Translations under genes and position numbers: made by a program
IMG/VR virus record: IMGVR_UViG_3300044470_000025
Span: 1-29,980 of that record
Source: a virus
Length of the DNA: 29,980 nucleotides
Reading direction: 5' to 3' (one strand)
In this document: one piece after another, positions 2,275 through 29,974 of the stretch
Position numbering within the stretch: the first letter of the stretch is position 1
Layout of the letters: each line of letters opens with the position of its first letter
Notes under the pieces: model-generated
What the model was told of the DNA's origin: nothing
Databases searched by the model: none
Seen by the model: the letters and a program-made list of their open reading frames with translations, nothing else

Positions 2275-3632
2275 TAATAACCTCCCCTGTTCCTGACGAC
2301 TTGGAGGATGTTATTTGAAACGGCTGTAGATAATTCTTGCTCTGTCATGACTGAACCTTGAACATTGACAGTCACGTAGATATTGCCGCCCATGCCACCG
2401 CCAGCACCCAACGGCATCACAGTCGCACCCGTGGGCAGGCTTAAAAGTTCCGGCCCCCTCTCACCCACTACAGAGAGTCCGGGGCTTGTTGTAATACCAC
2501 CGTTGGCTTGTCCAGGAACTTTAGTTGTGGTCTTACTAGAACTTTGTCCGCCGAACAGATTAGAGAATGTGGATGTAAGACTGTTCCATAGGTTAGAGAA
2601 AACATTCCCTATCCAGTCAATAATGGTATTAATACCATTCTTGAACCAGTTAAGACCATCTCCAATCAGCCAGTTATAAGCATCCTGCCCCATCTTAGTG
2701 AGCCATTCTGTTACCTTAACAAACGAGTCCCAATCTGCCTTCATACTCGGTAGAAAGTTCTTCCAGAGAGGTTCTAGTGCGTTTATGCCTGCATTCCACC
2801 AACCTTTTAACTGTTCCCATGCACGCTGCCATTCAGTAGGAGAAAAGAATGCTAACAACATTTGCCCTGCAAGTAAGAAGAATTCACCTACAGCTCCGCC
2901 TAACATTTTCAAAGTTTCTAAGCCTTGACTTGCATATGCATTCATTGAACCCTTTACTTTACCCCAAGTTGAACTTTGGCTTTCTAAGTCTTTTGTCACC
3001 TGGTTGATAGCCTCATCACCCATCATCCATTGCCCGTTGACATACTCGCCGTTATAGGCTTTTTCAAGGTCTGCTAAGACTGTCTTTAGGGAAAGTCCTG
3101 TGTCCTTTGAAATTTGCATAGCTTTAGCAAGAATAGACTGGGATACGTTATTGCTTCTGGTCGTCTGGTCAAGTTCACTCATGGCGTTTGCTACCGTTCC
3201 CAGCGGTAGACCTAATTGAAGGGCTAAAGAACTTGTTAGTCTCATTGTTTGATTAAAGTCCATCATGGGACCTAAAGTGTATTGATTCGAGATTGCCCCA
3301 AAACTAACAAGGGAGGATTCAAGTGAATCCAGCGTCTCAGCTAATGCGACTAATCCCACAACGGCTGCAATCGCAGCTGCAGGCAATGCAAGAGCCATAA
3401 TACCGCTCAGTCCGGCAGCACCCATTAACGGATTGAGCATTTGCAGGCCGGGCACCATTTTATTAATACTGGTATTCATTAAGTCGGTTGAGGCACTCGC
3501 CGCTTTTGCACCCGTGGCTGTTCCTGTGGCCTTTGCTGACAGGTTCTCTAATTCAGTGGATACCTGAGCAGCCGCATCTGTGCCGGTCTTGATAACCTCT
3601 ATTCCGATTTGCATTGTATTACTTGTTGTCAT
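2274..3632 (-). CDS. Tail tape measure protein
   Basis: At 452 residues this is a short tape measure protein. An Ala/Thr/Ser-rich N-terminal helix region is followed by a hydrophobic stretch around residues 75-100 (ALALPAAAIAAVVGLVALAE), typical of the membrane-inserting part of the family. A Trp-rich segment around residues 255-345 (repeats of NWL, NWF, DWI and LWN) comes next, and the C-terminus carries the GERGPELLSLP motif common in phage tape measures. The ATG overlaps the stop of the frameshifted chaperone extension (ATGA). In the family the protein fixes tail length and enters the host envelope during DNA delivery. The small size suggests a short tail. Confidence 0.88.
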   Translation of the reverse strand: MTTSNTMQIGIEVIKTGTDAAAQVSTELENLSAKATGTATGAKAASASTDLMNTSINKMVPGLQMLNPLMGAAGLSGIMALALPAAAIAAVVGLVALAETLDSLESSLVSFGAISNQYTLGPMMDFNQTMRLTSSLALQLGLPLGTVANAMSELDQTTRSNNVSQSILAKAMQISKDTGLSLKTVLADLEKAYNGEYVNGQWMMGDEAINQVTKDLESQSSTWGKVKGSMNAYASQGLETLKMLGGAVGEFFLLAGQMLLAFFSPTEWQRAWEQLKGWWNAGINALEPLWKNFLPSMKADWDSFVKVTEWLTKMGQDAYNWLIGDGLNWFKNGINTIIDWIGNVFSNLWNSLTSTFSNLFGGQSSSKTTTKVPGQANGGITTSPGLSVVGERGPELLSLPTGATVMPLGAGGGMGGNIYVTVNVQGSVMTEQELSTAVSNNILQVVRNRGGY

Positions 3633-3850
3633 GAATCTTCCTTATTTACAAAAGACTCCAGTTCCATCATGTTAAGATACTCATAAAAGTCTTGTGCGGG
3701 TGCGGCTTTAATCTCCCATGGTGGTATTCGCCATGCCTTTGAAAGTTCATAGATAGTAATGGAAAGAGGATAACGCCCGTTATCTTGATACTGTTCGGGG
3801 TGCTCATGGCGTTTTTTAATGTCAGTAAAGCTGGCTATCAGCTTGGTGCG
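3629..3850 (-). CDS. Tail assembly chaperone, -1 frameshift extension (GT-like T part)
   Basis: From the slippery site at 3850 the -1 frame is open for 73 codons and stops at a TGA overlapping the tape measure ATG. It has no start codon of its own with a ribosome binding site, so expression by ribosomal frameshifting from the upstream chaperone is expected, giving a fusion of about 170 residues. The extension contains IYELSKAWRIPPWEIKAAPA and then a DFYEYLNMMELES tail. The W-x-IPPWE pattern is common in the second part of siphovirus tail chaperones. By analogy with lambda gpG/gpGT, the short form coats the tape measure and the long form recruits tail tube subunits. The reading frame is seen directly; the role is inferred from family and position. 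Confidence 0.85.
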   Translation of the reverse strand, partial: RTKLIASFTDIKKRHEHPEQYQDNGRYPLSITIYELSKAWRIPPWEIKAAPAQDFYEYLNMMELESFVNKEDS

Positions 3851-5205: not shown

Positions 5206-5622
5206 TTATGCTGCAAAATTAGTACCGTAAACTTCCTGTGCTGTGAGTTCGAATGTATAACCCAAGTGCATTTGTCCGTTGTAGTTAAGCACTCCAAAAT
5301 TATACCCTGTGATTTCAGAGTTATAACATGATCCGTTGAGCGATAATGCAGCGTCAAATACATCCAGAACCGCCTCAAGGTAAGGTCTGCACTTTGCTTC
5401 GGATTCCGGCTTGACCTGATTAGTGCAATGCAACTCCATGATAATATTGTGATTGACACGCCGGACTGACGGCTCCCTGACTATCTTCGCACCAGGAACG
5501 GGGAAGTTCACGAAGCATGGGAAGACGTTCATCGTTGCCGGTGCCTTGTCGTGGGCTTTAAGCACGCCGGGAACGGTTGCTTCCAGCACTGCTATTTGTG
5601 TCATTATTAAGTCTAAACTCAT
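5206..5622 (-). CDS. Putative tail terminator / tail completion protein
   Basis: This 138-residue protein lies between the HK97 gp10-like gene and the tail tube gene, the position of tail terminator proteins (lambda gpU type). It begins with a helix (MSLDLIMTQIAVLEA), followed by strands containing NIIMELHCTN and a YLEAVLDVFDAALSL helix, and ends in a strand-rich part (LGYTFELTAQEVYG). Helix-sheet-helix order, small size and a terminal strand are compatible with a terminator that caps the tube and joins the head connector. The ATG at 5622 has only a weak AGGTAA upstream; a second ATG seven codons in is possible. The function rests mainly on gene order. Confidence 0.6.
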   Translation of the reverse strand: MSLDLIMTQIAVLEATVPGVLKAHDKAPATMNVFPCFVNFPVPGAKIVREPSVRRVNHNIIMELHCTNQVKPESEAKCRPYLEAVLDVFDAALSLNGSCYNSEITGYNFGVLNYNGQMHLGYTFELTAQEVYGTNFAA

Positions 5623-7260: not shown

Positions 7261-9678
7261 TTATGCTCCCGTGCTCCCACCGATATCTAAATCGGAGAGT
7301 CTACTCCCGCCGATATTCCTTTGACCTGTCCGACTACCACCGAGAATGATAACTAATGCCCTTATAATATACTCAGCATCAGTTAATGACAATCCTTCTG
7401 TAATGGCTATGTTGTAGGCTGTTATTATTTTAAGGGTATCCGCTAGTGATAAGCCCTCACTAATAGAGATGCGCAGTATGAGTTGTACAGTCCGTGAATC
7501 GGTTAGGCTTAACCCTTCCACTTTGGAGATGATAGCCTTCACTGTCTTAAGGTCGGTTAGACTCAAACCCTCATTCCTGTTTATGTTTGCGGTTAGCAGT
7601 TCTGATATTGATTCACCGATTGATAGCCCTTCAGTGTGGGCAATAATGGTTTTGAGTAATTCAGCATCCGCTAGTGATAAGCCCTCATTATGGTTAATAC
7701 CAGCGTGCATTCGTGCAGTCTCTATATCGGTAACAGTCAGCCCTTCAGTGTGGGCAATAATGGTTTTGAGTAATTCAGCATCCGCTAGTGATAAGCCCTC
7801 ACTAATAGAGATGCGCAGTATGAGTTGTACAGTCCGTGAATCGGTTAGGCTTAACCCTTCATTTCTACTTATGCTTGCAGTTAGAAGTTCTGATATAGTT
7901 TCACCGATTGAAAGCCCTTCTGTCTTACTCAGCGCGGCGTGCATCGTTTCAGATAGAGTTTCGCCTGCTGTCAGTCCTTCAGTTCGAGAGATACGAGTCT
8001 TTAATGATTCCATATCGGCAATCGTTAATCCCTCTGTAATGGAAGGGAACGACTTTTGGATTGCTGACAGTGATTCCCCGGCGGTAAATCCCTCTGTAAT
8101 GGAAGGGAACGACTTTTGAGTTATTGATAATGCATCGCCAGCACTAAAGCCTTCAGAGATTAGCAATTTATAGATTAAACCAAACCAAACGGACTCGCTA
8201 AGTGAAAAACTTTCAGTGCGAGTGAGATTAGCGTGTAGGATTTCAGCCAACGTTTCAGTTAGTGTTAAACCTTCACTACGAGAGATAAGCGTTTTTAAGG
8301 CCTCAGAGTCCGTTAATGTCAGACCTTCGGCCCTTGATAAAATTGCTTTCAGTGTTTCGGTATCTGCTAAGGTGATCCCCTCAGTTCTTGAGAGAATGGA
8401 TTTTAATAATAGCGTCTCGCCTGCCGTCAACCCCTCTGTGCGAGTGATTTTCGTCTTGTCTGAGAGAGATTCACCTGTGTTTATTCCCTCAGTCCGTGAT
8501 ATCCGAGTCCCGACTGCTAATGACTCACCCGTTGTAATGCCCTCAGTTCTTGAGATACTATAAGTTGTTATAGCTATTGGTGCAAAGCTGGCAGCGGAGA
8601 TAGCCCAAAATATAGAATCGTGCACCCAACTCATAGTTTGAGAACCCGCAGGAGTCACTGGGGCATTGGTATCGCTACCTCCCTCTGATAAACCCTGTGA
8701 GTCGGCAAAATTCCATCGTGCTGTATTATTACATGTGGCGGTGTAAAACAAATTAACAACACTGAATACCCAGCAATTATCAGCAATGGTAGTTACATTA
8801 ACTGTGGCTGTACTGGAATTACCTGTTGCTCCATTATTAGCATCTGGTTGTCCAGATTGGGCTGCACCAGAATACGAAACTACACCACCAACACCACAAT
8901 AGGCATTATTTTTAAGGGTCACAAAAACACTTTTGGCAGAACCTGTAGTAGGAGCACACATAAACCAAATTGCAGTTATATTATAAGAACTTCCCTCATC
9001 TTCTCTAACTTTTGTTAAAGAAGTCCCATTATAAGTAACACCGCTTACCTGTCCATAAGTATAACTAGAATGTCCCAGCACTAATAAATTAGCAGTTGCT
9101 CCACAGGTATGACTCCAAGCATAACTACTAACGTTATCAAGCTCTCCCGTTTTACTTGTAGCGTCAAAGGCGATAGAATGAGGTAAATTGTGTGGTTGAG
9201 GTGGCTCAGGAGGTGGCAAAGCACTAATCATTTCAGTCCGTGAAGGCTGTGGAAAATGTGGAGTACTACCAAGAGATTGATAGAGAACCTTAGAAGTGAG
9301 AATCCTGACAACATCACCGGCAGGAAGCAATGACGGGTCTGTCAAGTAATACTGAGAAGTTGGGGTGTATAAATCAATCGCACCTTGTGCAGTCAAGAAC
9401 TCATCAAAGTAACAATGCCCAGGAGCGATGGAGACCTTGATTAATCCAGCCAAAGAGTAAAGATTCCCTGCTTGGTCTTTCAGGTCAAGTCCAATGTGGA
9501 TAAATTGCCACTGGCCTGCACTCTTAGGCTGGATATAGTACCCAGTGCCGTTACCGTCAAGGGCATAGTTAGTGCTTCCCAAAGCACCGGGAATAGCACC
9601 AACATTTGCCCCTACGAATATTAGTGTTTCGTAGGAATGTAGCCACTTATCATTGTATTGAATCGTACCTGTGGTCAT
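7261..9678 (-). CDS. Large repeat fibre / virion surface protein
   Basis: The 805-residue product has three parts. Residues 1-150 form a beta-rich attachment domain with no family I can name. Residues 160-370 form a jelly-roll-like domain (GVTYNGTSLTKV, IWFMCAPTTGSAKSVFVTL, GGVVSYSGA), a pattern seen in many phage surface proteins. From about residue 375 to 770 there are some twenty copies of an 18-20 residue repeat with consensus SRTEGLTLTDSEALKTLI. The C-terminus is glycine-rich (ILGGSRTGQRNIGG, then SDLDIGGSTGA). The repeats probably form an elongated helical or beta-solenoid shaft. The gene lies between capsid and connector genes rather than after the tape measure, so it could be a head fibre. 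Repeat number could vary by recombination. Confidence 0.75.
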   Translation of the reverse strand: MTTGTIQYNDKWLHSYETLIFVGANVGAIPGALGSTNYALDGNGTGYYIQPKSAGQWQFIHIGLDLKDQAGNLYSLAGLIKVSIAPGHCYFDEFLTAQGAIDLYTPTSQYYLTDPSLLPAGDVVRILTSKVLYQSLGSTPHFPQPSRTEMISALPPPEPPQPHNLPHSIAFDATSKTGELDNVSSYAWSHTCGATANLLVLGHSSYTYGQVSGVTYNGTSLTKVREDEGSSYNITAIWFMCAPTTGSAKSVFVTLKNNAYCGVGGVVSYSGAAQSGQPDANNGATGNSSTATVNVTTIADNCWVFSVVNLFYTATCNNTARWNFADSQGLSEGGSDTNAPVTPAGSQTMSWVHDSIFWAISAASFAPIAITTYSISRTEGITTGESLAVGTRISRTEGINTGESLSDKTKITRTEGLTAGETLLLKSILSRTEGITLADTETLKAILSRAEGLTLTDSEALKTLISRSEGLTLTETLAEILHANLTRTESFSLSESVWFGLIYKLLISEGFSAGDALSITQKSFPSITEGFTAGESLSAIQKSFPSITEGLTIADMESLKTRISRTEGLTAGETLSETMHAALSKTEGLSIGETISELLTASISRNEGLSLTDSRTVQLILRISISEGLSLADAELLKTIIAHTEGLTVTDIETARMHAGINHNEGLSLADAELLKTIIAHTEGLSIGESISELLTANINRNEGLSLTDLKTVKAIISKVEGLSLTDSRTVQLILRISISEGLSLADTLKIITAYNIAITEGLSLTDAEYIIRALVIILGGSRTGQRNIGGSRLSDLDIGGSTGA
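7438..7860 (-). repeat. 81-bp direct repeats inside the repeat-fibre gene
   Basis: Positions 7438-7518 and 7780-7860 are identical over 81 bases and lie 342 bases apart, an in-frame distance of 114 codons. Both encode part of the EGLSL-type repeat, including SRTVQLILRISISEG. The identity at DNA level is much higher than between other copies of the protein repeat, which points to a recent duplication or gene conversion inside the gene. Confidence 0.9.
7625..7801 (-). repeat. 63-bp direct repeats inside the repeat-fibre gene
   Basis: Positions 7625-7687 and 7739-7801 are identical over 63 bases, 114 bases (38 codons, about two protein repeats) apart. Both encode LADAELLKTIIAHTEGL. The second copy overlaps the start of the second 81-bp repeat, so the tract is a mosaic of shuffled units. 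A shorter pair, each containing ccctctgtaatggaaggg, lies near 8031-8118 and encodes the QKSFPSITEG units. Confidence 0.9.
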
Positions 9679-22495: not shown

Positions 22496-22607
22496 TTAGA
22501 CTCACTTTTTGATGGCATTCAGGACAAGTATCCTTACCATCTTCACCCGGAATAGCTTTTACTACTTTATGGCATCTCTCACAAATCCGATTAATCCAAC
22601 CTTTCAT
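22485..22607 (-). CDS. Small zinc-ribbon protein
   Basis: The 40-residue product starts MKGWINRICERCHKVVKAIP at an ATG overlapping the phosphoesterase stop as ATGA, with GAGGTCTGT in front. Two Cys pairs (CERCH at residues 9-13, CPECH at about 29-33) form a rubredoxin-like zinc ribbon. The frame is open further upstream within the phosphoesterase gene, but the ATGA start fits local practice. It could bind DNA or RNA. Confidence 0.7.
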   Translation of the reverse strand: MKGWINRICERCHKVVKAIPGEDGKDTCPECHQKVSLNDK

Positions 22608-23479
22608 ACAGACCTCGTTACGTCTATGAAGTTTGTGTTTGGATTGATAGTAAACATAGCACAGCAGAGAGCAGTAGGCGGGTAAACTTTCTGCTCGCCG
22701 TAGGAGCTGTTCACGCCCTGGGTGTATGTCCTGAACCATGATCCAGTGGTACAACCAGTAGAAGTGATATTGCTGATTTTCCCACGGCTATTGACATCCA
22801 GACGAGTTATTTCCTTTGAAACATAATCGTGAACGTGTCCGTAAGCATAAATATCAGCTTTAAATGACTTCATGTATTTTACGAGGTTGTTTAACTTCCA
22901 GCCCTCTGTAACAGCGTTTCCTGCCCCATGAGTGAAGCATCCTGTCACTAAGTGCTTCTCTAGGCTGTTGTCCCTGCTGAAATGGAACCTAACGAAGCAG
23001 GAGTATGATAGGTTTGGGAGTCCTAAGTCTTTACAGATATGCTCGTGTACCTTACCGTCATTCTGCTTGGAGTAAGATACCTCGTGATTTCCATAGAGCA
23101 GGCCGATACATTGGTGCTTGATTGGAGTGAGTAAGTCTACCAGCCAATCCCTGACAGATTCACCGATGTCAGCCGGGTCAACCCACGGCGCAATCTGTCC
23201 GTCCGCCCATCTCTTATCCTTTGGAGTAATAAAGTCTCCGTAGTCGCCCATGCCTATCCACATGGCATTAGTATCAGCCTGTATGTCTTTTACTTTTTGC
23301 CTGATGTGTGATTCGGCACAGTGGATTGTACCGGCGTGAATATCGCCTAAACAATACAGGTGGAAAGTTGATTGAGCCTTTCGATAAGGTGCCGCAATGT
23401 CAATTACTTCCGTTTTTCTCTCTCCTGTTCTAGATAGTCTCTGTGTAGAAGTATAGCACAAAGTGTCAAATTGTGTCAA
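22604..23479 (-). CDS. Calcineurin-like metallophosphoesterase
   Basis: The frame encodes up to 291 residues with the metal-site series of the family: YCLGDIHAGT, then MGDYGDF, LLYGNHEVS, FTHGAG and YAYGHVHDYV. Such enzymes hydrolyse phosphodiesters or phosphomonoesters using two metals; in phages they may act on DNA ends or nucleotides, and the substrate is not visible. The frame starts at TTG at 23479, but that codon is the -35 box of a strong promoter, so the transcript probably begins inside the frame. The true start may be an ATT at 23404 or another rare codon. The conserved domain begins after that point. Confidence 0.88.
   Translation of the reverse strand: MTQFDTLCYTSTQRLSRTGERKTEVIDIAAPYRKAQSTFHLYCLGDIHAGTIHCAESHIRQKVKDIQADTNAMWIGMGDYGDFITPKDKRWADGQIAPWVDPADIGESVRDWLVDLLTPIKHQCIGLLYGNHEVSYSKQNDGKVHEHICKDLGLPNLSYSCFVRFHFSRDNSLEKHLVTGCFTHGAGNAVTEGWKLNNLVKYMKSFKADIYAYGHVHDYVSKEITRLDVNSRGKISNITSTGCTTGSWFRTYTQGVNSSYGEQKVYPPTALCCAMFTINPNTNFIDVTRSV
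23443..23479 (-). promoter_or_regulatory. Sigma70-type promoter with extended -10
   Basis: On the minus strand TTGACA (23479-23474) is followed by 18 bases and TATACT (23455-23450), preceded by TGC, an extended -10. A second TTGACA lies at 23469-23464, ten bases closer. Transcription would start near 23443 and read the phosphoesterase and following small genes. It sits exactly between the non-coding region and that operon. Both boxes are near consensus, making this the best promoter in the window. Confidence 0.75.
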
Positions 23480-24123
23480 GTGGAGGCGGGCCGGTGTGCT
23501 TAGTGCATATCACGCCGCTTTCAGCTCGGTAGACGCTAAAGATAGCCACTCATTGGCGACAACCCTTAGTGACCCCTGCCGAGGTTGGAGTAGGACTTGC
23601 ACGCCTCTCCGATGAAAAGCACCCGCCTGTAGAGCTTTGCCCGCGAAGCCTGAAATAAAAAACCGGTTAAGACCTGCGCTGATTTGTGGGTTTTGTCATT
23701 TATCCACACCCGAAGCAGCCGGTTAGTGGCGGCGCACCCCTTCCGCAGAGAGTAATAATCGCTCTACAAAGGATGATGCGCCACTGGTTACCCTGTCCGA
23801 GCTTCACGGCGTCTATTCTTGAGACCTCGGCTGACACCTGATAACGGTCCCACTGTAACCACGTTTTGTCCTGTCAGAAACTACCCGCCTAGAAGGGCTG
23901 GCCGCTATTGCTGATTACGGTCATTTATACTGGCGTGGCACCCTTTAGAGGATTATAAAAGACGCCCGGGGTTGCGCTTGTCGGCATAACCGCTATCAGA
24001 GGCTCCGTGCGTATGTTAGGACTTTCGAGGGGATGTTTGCCCCTCTTAAGGATAAAGGAATAAAACATAGACTATTTAGCTAAACGCAGCCGCCAGTCTA
24101 GAGAGGTCGAAGTCTGGAGAGGG
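23480..24123. ncRNA. Candidate large structured non-coding RNA
   Basis: This stretch of about 640 bases has no plausible gene on either strand, in a genome that otherwise wastes almost no DNA, and appears GC-richer than the flanks. It contains many complementary segments: GGTGTG 23493-23498 with CATATC 23506-23511; GCTTTG 23634-23639 with CGAAGC 23644-23649; AACCGG 23661-23666 with CCGGTT 23719-23724, enclosing CTGC/GCAG; 23726-23736 with 23777-23784; TGGTTAC 23785-23791 with GTAACCA 23855-23861, enclosing CCGAG/CTCGG; TGGCCG 23899-23904 with CGGTCA 23918-23923; GGCGT/ACGCC at 23932 and 23962; GAGGGG/CCCCTC at 24027-24045. GCCGAGGT 23578-23585 could pair with 23824-23831 as an alternative. 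Size and phage setting recall GOLLD and ROOL RNAs, but no family is claimed. G-U pairs favour the plus strand in four helices and the minus strand in one. Confidence 0.6.
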
Positions 24124-24294
24124 CTATGAAACATCGTTGGTTCTCATTGTTTGGTACGTATCTGTATTCAATGCTCTTTTGGGGAGATCCCTAAATTGAG
24201 ATGATGGGTGATTGTGGATGGTTATTTTGTCACTAAAATTCTCATGTCCGTTTTTATCTTTACAGATTATGTGTTTCTCAGTGACTTTTAACAT
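24124..24294 (-). CDS. Small hypothetical protein
   Basis: The 56-residue product starts MLKVTEKHIICKDKNGHENF at an ATG behind AAGGAGATTACCG; the frame is open nine codons further upstream but lacks a comparable site. It is polar and charged, with a beta-hairpin-like first half (HIICKDKNGHENFSDKITIH) and an Arg/Thr-rich end. It lies alone between the methyltransferase and the non-coding region. A TTGACA and a TGT-TATATG extended -10 lie upstream at 24331-24312, but their spacing is too short for a standard pair. Function is unknown. Confidence 0.5.
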   Translation of the reverse strand: MLKVTEKHIICKDKNGHENFSDKITIHNHPSSQFRDLPKRALNTDTYQTMRTNDVS

Positions 24295-24362
24295 CGGTAA
24301 TCTCCTTCTTACATATAACATACACTGTCAAGCATTTCGTGACTAGAGTGTAAACCGTAGCT

Positions 24363-24785
24363 TTAAATTAAGGTTTCCTGCTTTATTGTTTCCTTCGGTA
24401 TCTCTAACTGCATTACGGACTGGCTAAGGCGTTTAGCGGCTATCTCACAGTACTTCTCGCTGATTTCAATACCTACACACTTTCTACCCAGAATCTTAGC
24501 GGCAACTGCGGTTGTCCCACTGCCTAGAAAGGGGTCAAGAATACCAGATGTTCCCGAACCAACTTTCGGCAACATGGCCATTTCAATACACCATTTCATA
24601 AGGGATATCGGCTTTTGGGTCGGATGCAAGTTTCCATTTTCTGCGTGGTTGCGCTTTTCAGTCCACGATTTACAGGGTTTATCTATGTTTGTCCATGCAA
24701 GCTCAAAGTCTGCCAGTGTGTCAAGTTTCTGCGTTTTATCCCAAGTGAGCCAACATCTTGAGGGTTGAACAAGATAGTTATTTGC
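24363..24785 (-). CDS. DNA methyltransferase, C-terminal part (after frameshift)
   Basis: This frame continues the methyltransferase begun at 25071, one base out of phase. From 24785 it reads ANNYLVQPSRCWLTWDK, then LADFELAWTN, HPTQKPISLMKWCIEMA, and ILDPFLGSGTTAVAAKILGR (the S-adenosylmethionine-binding motif I), ending GIEISEKYCEIAAKRL. W-x-W-D-K, HPTQKP and D-P-F-x-G-S-G-T-T are hallmarks of N6-adenine/N4-cytosine methyltransferases of the beta arrangement. An internal ATG at 24629 starts only a fragment lacking the target and catalytic region. Alone it would not be active; it is read here as the second half of one gene. Confidence 0.8.
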   Translation of the reverse strand, partial: ANNYLVQPSRCWLTWDKTQKLDTLADFELAWTNIDKPCKSWTEKRNHAENGNLHPTQKPISLMKWCIEMAMLPKVGSGTSGILDPFLGSGTTAVAAKILGRKCVGIEISEKYCEIAAKRLSQSVMQLEIPKETIKQETLI

Positions 24786-25071
24786 CCCCCCAGATGATAC
24801 TAAATTCAGCCTTGTTTATTATTTGCTCTATCAGTATCTGGTCGACTAAATAATCCCAATCTTTCATATCGCCACGTTTGAACTTTATACCCCAAGTGCC
24901 ACCTTGCATCTTTAAGTTGAGTCCATACGGCGGGTCAGTCAGTACCAAGTCAAACGCCTTATCGGGAAAGAGTGGCAATATCTCACGATTGTCAGCGCAA
25001 TAGATAACGGCGGCATCATCTTGATAGTAAATCTTGTCTTTGGCGGGTAAATTAGAGAAGTCTATCATCAA
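24778..25071 (-). CDS. DNA methyltransferase, N-terminal part (beta class)
   Basis: The first 97 residues include YYQDDAAVIYCADNREILP and VLTDPPYGLNLKMQ, with the DPPY catalytic motif IV of amino-methyltransferases, and then FSIIWGGK and a stop. DPPY before the motif I region is the beta order (N6_N4_Mtase family). The enzyme would methylate adenine N6 or cytosine N4 in phage DNA. Removing one G at 24785-24791 joins this part to the C-terminal frame, giving about 235 residues, a normal size. Its ATG overlaps the next upstream gene as ATGA. Confidence 0.82.
   Translation of the reverse strand: MMIDFSNLPAKDKIYYQDDAAVIYCADNREILPLFPDKAFDLVLTDPPYGLNLKMQGGTWGIKFKRGDMKDWDYLVDQILIEQIINKAEFSIIWGGK
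24785..24791 (-). other. G7 homopolymer at a methyltransferase frameshift
   Basis: On the minus strand a run of seven G follows ATC-ATC-T. With seven, the frame reads WGGK and stops. With six, it reads IIWGANNYLVQPSRCWLTWDK in one frame, which aligns in length with the normal family segment. The tract is therefore either a sequencing or assembly slip, or a phase-variable switch of the enzyme. Confidence 0.75.
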
Positions 25072-29896: not shown

Positions 29897-29907
29897 ATTC
29901 TCCCCTT

Positions 29908-29974
29908 TAGCACCGTTAGCAGTTTATAGCACCGTTAGCTATTATAGCATTGTTAGCAGTTTTAGCATTATAAC
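29908..29974 (-). repeat. Four 13-bp direct repeats, 18-19 bp apart, upstream of the ATPase
   Basis: The minus strand carries GCTAACGGTGCTA at 29920-29908 and 29939-29927, GCTAACAATGCTA at 29957-29945, and a partial copy at 29974-29963. The spacing is 19, 18 and 18 bases, close to two helical turns, as expected for tandem binding sites of one protein: an operator or replication iterons. The array may continue beyond the window. Confidence 0.75.
29934..29949 (-). promoter_or_regulatory. Extended -10 promoter within the repeat array
   Basis: TGC-TATAAT on the minus strand at 29949-29941 is a consensus extended -10, with a start expected near 29934, 38 bases before the ATPase ATG. A clear -35 is not visible. 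Similar TATAAT or TATAAA boxes recur in step with the repeats, at 29972-29967 and near 29928, so a repeat-binding protein would cover the promoter. Confidence 0.55.

Follow-up and report, generated by a model that had tools for sequence, protein, structure and literature searches.

The large phage RNAs ROOL (RF03087) and GOLLD (RF02032) are often found near tRNAs or tRNA islands, and they are of considerable size; one ROOL example is 659 nt long, and many GOLLD RNAs are longer than 800 nt (PMC12286853). The structures of both have been solved, but neither has a known function, and GOLLD expression increases during lysis. Further independent families would show which of their features matter, particularly if found in small genomes that devote over 2% of their length to a single RNA. 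In Staphylococcus phage K, two long RNAs have been likened to GOLLD and ROOL on the basis of their position and strong transcription; these RNAs adjoin tRNAs and are reported to be transcribed (PMC9241854).

Here we analyze a gene-free stretch of 644 nt (positions 23480-24123, hereafter the gap) in the tightly packed genome of an environmental phage. The analyzed window, to which all positions refer unless another record is named, spans an entire IMG/VR virus record (29,980 bases). The long RNAs of phage K are the nearest precedent for the gap, being likewise long gene-free stretches that match neither GOLLD nor ROOL. One difference lies in the folding: positions 37679-38649 of KF766114, which we take to be one of phage K's long RNAs, fold far beyond chance (z of -5.4), whereas the gap does not.

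A first-pass annotation made from the sequence alone had noted that the size and setting of the gap recall ROOL and GOLLD, and this part of the comparison stands. An RNA from the gap would share with ROOL the phage setting, the length class, and the absence of a protein product, and with GOLLD the phage setting, the large size, and the non-coding character. The likeness does not extend to the sequence or the neighborhood: the gap has no match to the ROOL covariance model (at the gathering score or at E<=5) or to the GOLLD model, which represents the conserved 3' region; it has no known covarying structure; and the tRNA vicinity usual for these RNAs is absent, as a tRNA search of the 29,980-bp record, which may be incomplete, found none. 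Membership of the gap in either family, both of which are defined by covariance models, was rejected, as Rfam gave no match at thresholds as lax as E<=5, and by analogy an RNA encoded there would at most work like ROOL or GOLLD. When the two models were run as positive controls, neither found a member in phage K or LBR48, and ROOL was not found in 50 viral records.

Genome context and coding potential

All recognizable genes of the record are on the minus strand, and they include tail genes, head proteins, a portal, a terminase, a ParB-like gene, two methyltransferases, an exonuclease, a nucleoside 2-deoxyribosyltransferase, and, at the right end, a helicase-like gene. Nowhere else in the window is there a run of 250 nt or more without ORFs of at least 60 aa, and the gap comprises over 2% of the genome length; a non-coding segment of 644 bases is rarely retained in phage genomes. 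The longest ATG/GTG/TTG ORFs within it reach 50-51 aa, the scores against the phage's own codon usage lie close to zero in each of the six frames, and none of the nine longest open segments matched Pfam or PHROGs models at E<=1. The absence of genes from about 640 bases, as first proposed, is therefore real, and neither six-frame codon usage nor protein-family searches revealed a hidden protein. The accompanying statement that every other gap is under about 170 bases was slightly wrong, since the gap at 3633-3837 spans about 205 nt. The gap is also enriched in GC as suggested (53.1%, versus 45.9% for the whole record), yet gene-containing windows elsewhere in the record reach 54-56%.

The gap is bounded by the end of a 65-aa ORF at 24124 and, at its left edge, by a sigma-70 promoter close to consensus, with the -35 box starting at 23479 (Table 1); judging from its sequence, this predicted promoter probably serves the exonuclease gene downstream. 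Within positions 23400-23479 (minus strand), the exonuclease gene has no ATG/GTG/TTG start between the promoter and its conserved part, which implies either that the start codon is a rare one or that the promoter is misplaced. The DNA methyltransferase gene at 24363-25071 (minus strand) is split near 24784 by a frameshift in a run of seven G, reflecting either an assembly or sequencing error or a true inactivation. In the head-tail region, a gene of 805 aa (7261-9678, minus strand) has internal repeats that are diverged and have a period of 114 bp.

Table 1. Features of the gap and its immediate flanks, ordered by position in the window
Feature	Positions	Strand	Basis or remarks
Downstream gene, DNA repair exonuclease-like (phrog_7339)	22604-23479	-	Profile match
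Sigma-70-type promoter, TTGACA-18-TATACT, TG before the -10 box	23450-23479	-	11/12 consensus matches
Proposed structured non-coding RNA, read leftward	23480-24123	-	ORF-free; zE about -1.5; low diversity
Domain closed by AGGCGGG/CCCGCCT	23484-23629		zE -2.3 (minus), -2.9 (plus)
Branched stem AACCGG...CCGGTT, then TTTTATTT	23655-23727	-	Sequence; exceeds loop limits of the stem scan
Perfect DnaA box TTATCCACA, single	23700-23708	+	Motif scan
Most stable local hairpin, stem GTGGCGCATC/GGTGCGCCGCCAC plus inner stem	23729-23784	-	-30.0 kcal/mol
Hairpin domain closed by GGTTAC/GTAACC	23785-23861	-	Predicted; own energy at chance
Rod-like hairpin, outer 5 bp, A-A mismatch, 8 bp	23911-23999	-	Predicted fold
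Small hairpin GAGGGG/CCCCTC	24027-24045	-	Sequence; minus-strand MFE and centroid
Upstream ORF, 65 aa, without family (Pfam, PHROGs)	24124-24321	-	Likely ATG start near 24293

Folding statistics and strand

The local helices listed in the first-pass annotation are present, but their number does not exceed chance: we counted 10 stems (at least 6 Watson-Crick pairs, loops of at most 60 nt), compared to 6.8±2.5 on the minus strand and 7.1±2.6 on the plus strand of dinucleotide shuffles. The same holds for the 8-bp long-range pairing between 23578-23585 and 23824-23831, which exists but is one of a class of exact 8-bp inverted repeats of which simple counting predicts about 3 per 644 nt; several other inverted repeats occur in the 1.1-kb stretch scanned around the gap.

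Folded as a whole, the gap has a z score of -1.2 to -1.7 on the minus strand (-1.45 in the control run) and of about 0.1 (+0.11), that is, chance, on the plus strand. This energy test is low in power and may overlook true RNAs of such a length: the controls gave zE values of -1.61 versus -0.54 for the two strands of the 5' part (644 nt) of E. coli 16S rRNA, -1.37 versus +0.03 for those of tmRNA, and -1.3 for the corresponding part of 23S rRNA, with more pronounced scores for RNase P RNA (-2.8) and the phage K stretch (-5.4). With rRNA and tmRNA scoring weakly too, we do not take the test as decisive, and since it can miss real RNAs the low score of the gap does not refute an RNA there; gene-containing windows of the same genome reach z scores of -1.4 to -1.9, and the energy of the gap therefore gives no support for an RNA either. 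The ensemble diversity of the minus strand is lower than that of 96% of shuffles, compared to a position at 48% for the plus strand (25 shuffles per strand). Of 22 strand-windows of equal size from the rest of the record, none matched both the energy and the diversity values (a rough comparison, with 12 shuffles each).

Among individual elements, the best minus-strand window of 64 nt, which holds the hairpin at 23729-23784, was matched by 5% of shuffled regions, versus 47% for the best plus-strand window; the hairpin itself has a z score of -4.7, a value for a segment picked after the fact. The diversity of the domain at 23484-23629 falls at 5-10% of shuffles. The predicted rod-like hairpin at 23911-23999 contains two G-U pairs on the minus strand that become C-A mismatches on the plus strand, and both it and the strongest hairpin favor the minus strand.

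Energy, fold definition, and the best hairpin thus together hint at a putative transcript of the minus strand, co-directional with the genes; the earlier leaning toward the plus strand, based on G-U pairs in four helices, is unsupported. A promoter scan of the region recognized no promoter belonging to a minus-strand RNA, and such a transcript could therefore arise by read-through of the upstream genes. We propose a 5' end near 24123 and a 3' end between about 23655 and 23480, with the branched stem at 23655-23727 and the adjoining TTTTATTT as a possible intrinsic terminator or 3' end.

Search for relatives

The comparison with Rfam that had been proposed along with the RNA returned no family match to the gap, at either curated (gathering) or lax (E<=5) thresholds, for group I and group II introns, tmRNA, or other families; a sub-threshold osmY match (E of 2.4) lies outside the gap. 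Homologues, which were to be collected as well, were found in none of the phage, plasmid, IMG/VR, and related viral records. A blastn search against 50,697 phage and 72,556 plasmid records recovered no similarity to the gap at E<=0.01, and at E<=10 it recovered merely short fragments with chance E values. Three 16-mers of the gap identified no relative among 2.9 million IMG/VR viral contigs; their longest matches are chance-like and lie in apparently coding or terminator-like sequence, those of the third scan ending after 17 nt. One 26-mer of the gap likewise identified no relative in GTDB genomes.

We also gathered relatives of the phage itself via its terminase (47 loci, 54-77% identity), exonuclease (40 loci, with GTDB also searched), and methyltransferase, and we compared them with the gap using BLAST, nhmmer, and single-sequence covariance models. 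The records retrieved for them contain no credible BLAST match to the gap, the best ones being short; nhmmer likewise gave no match, and single-sequence covariance models of three gap domains found no match among the relatives, an empty result that is weak evidence. A 21-nt match in one record (G025) was rejected as a homologue since it falls in a coding gene. The closest near-complete terminase relative shares with the window only genes of the structural side and is therefore uninformative on the presence of the RNA. The nearest exonuclease relative (76%) ends at a contig edge, and the next one (55%) carries a reading frame directly upstream of the exonuclease instead of a gap; the stretch is therefore not fixed in the lineage, as judged from a search that may have missed records very close to the window.

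Discussion

Our leading, though tentative, interpretation is that the gap may encode an orphan, lineage-specific structured non-coding RNA of the phage on the minus strand; we rank a decayed or foreign insert behind it and a DNA site third. The gene-free gap lies between two gene blocks, and transcription would enter it leftward from the upstream block, by read-through given that no promoter of its own was recognized. The transcript is predicted, with weak statistics, to fold into the hairpin domains at 23911-23999, 23785-23861, and 23729-23784 and a 3' domain, and it would end at the terminator-like stem and U tract near 23655 or before the promoter at 23479-23450. The RNA itself would then be the functional product, in line with proposals for other large phage RNAs, and it may be dispensable in relatives because it would have been acquired as an accessory element. 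The lone gap, the lack of a coding remnant, the raised GC content, and a strand asymmetry like that of real RNAs all hint at an orphan RNA; against it stand the lack of a homologue, a helix number and total energy within chance, and the lack of a recognized promoter of its own. As a single sequence without relatives, the gap is a lead and not a finding. It is unlikely that it represents a new family of large structured phage RNAs, unrelated to ROOL, GOLLD, and OLE, in which, as parts of the same unlikely reading, the other members would be unsampled or diverged past sequence recognition and the terminase-clade relatives would each carry an unrelated RNA of their own, as hinted by two further stretches (L078 5137-5450 and L064 3040-3275; see below).

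A functionless insert of foreign or decayed DNA, such as a worn-down gene or mobile element lodged between the two gene blocks, is a somewhat doubtful alternative. It would fit with the lack of a relative anywhere searched, the reading frame that the 55% exonuclease relative (L174) carries at the site, the chance-level stem counts, the frameshift that has broken the nearby methyltransferase, and an inverted pair of sequences alike at 13 of 15 positions (ACAGAGACTATCTAG/ACATAGACTATTTAG) that flanks most of the gap, of which about 0.5 are expected by chance. However, neither a protein family nor a codon signal survives, a target-site duplication was not seen, the minus strand has modest structure, and phages usually lose useless DNA quickly. 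The record's frameshifts (at least one, at the seven-G run in the neighboring methyltransferase) might also suggest a protein gene masked by sequencing errors or an unusual code, but all six frames are near zero for phage codon usage, and the nine longest open segments have no Pfam or PHROGs match; this reading would take many independent errors and is very improbable. The gap could instead act as DNA, as a replication origin or as a control region before the exonuclease promoter, an explanation that we regard as improbable. Its position between nucleotide-metabolism and packaging-side genes, the near-consensus promoter starting exactly at its left edge, and the perfect DnaA box TTATCCACA at 23700-23708, which is unusual for so short a stretch (two in the window, versus 0.27 expected), are consistent with this reading, but only one such box lies in the gap, and the relaxed motif occurs at chance level (3 found, 2.7 expected). 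The gap was rejected as a replication origin, having a single DnaA box, no iterons, a GC-rich rather than AT-rich composition (53% GC), and no change in GC skew, and the sole iteron-like array is elsewhere, before the helicase-like gene.

This array, at 29906-29967, immediately precedes that gene and is made up of 18-bp direct repeats (TTTAGCACCGTTAGCAGT) in about 3.4 copies; from their sequence the repeats are possibly an origin or operator, and they are a better origin candidate than the gap. The inverted 15-mers mentioned above (ACAGAGACTATCTAG/ACATAGACTATTTAG) lie at 23430-23444 (minus strand), just downstream of the exonuclease promoter, and at 24065-24079 (plus strand), and they may represent a shared operator or chance.

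Non-coding stretches were also observed in terminase relatives. Upstream of the terminase genes in L064, a largely non-coding stretch of about 240 bases (positions 3040-3275, minus strand; the same sequence occurs in L017) folds much better than shuffled sequences on either strand (z of -2.9), with an outer helix CTGTGGGGC/GCCCCACAG and no credible Rfam match. In a relative with 62% terminase identity (L038/L078), about 310 non-coding bases (positions 5137-5450 of L078, plus strand) lie directly upstream of a tRNA at 5450-5521 (anticodon CAT); they match no Rfam family and no phage record, and none of 100 shuffles folds as well as they do (z of -2.8), with a closing helix GCTTGCTGG/CCAGCAAGC in the stretch. 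The setting of this stretch is more like that of ROOL and GOLLD than is the setting of the gap.
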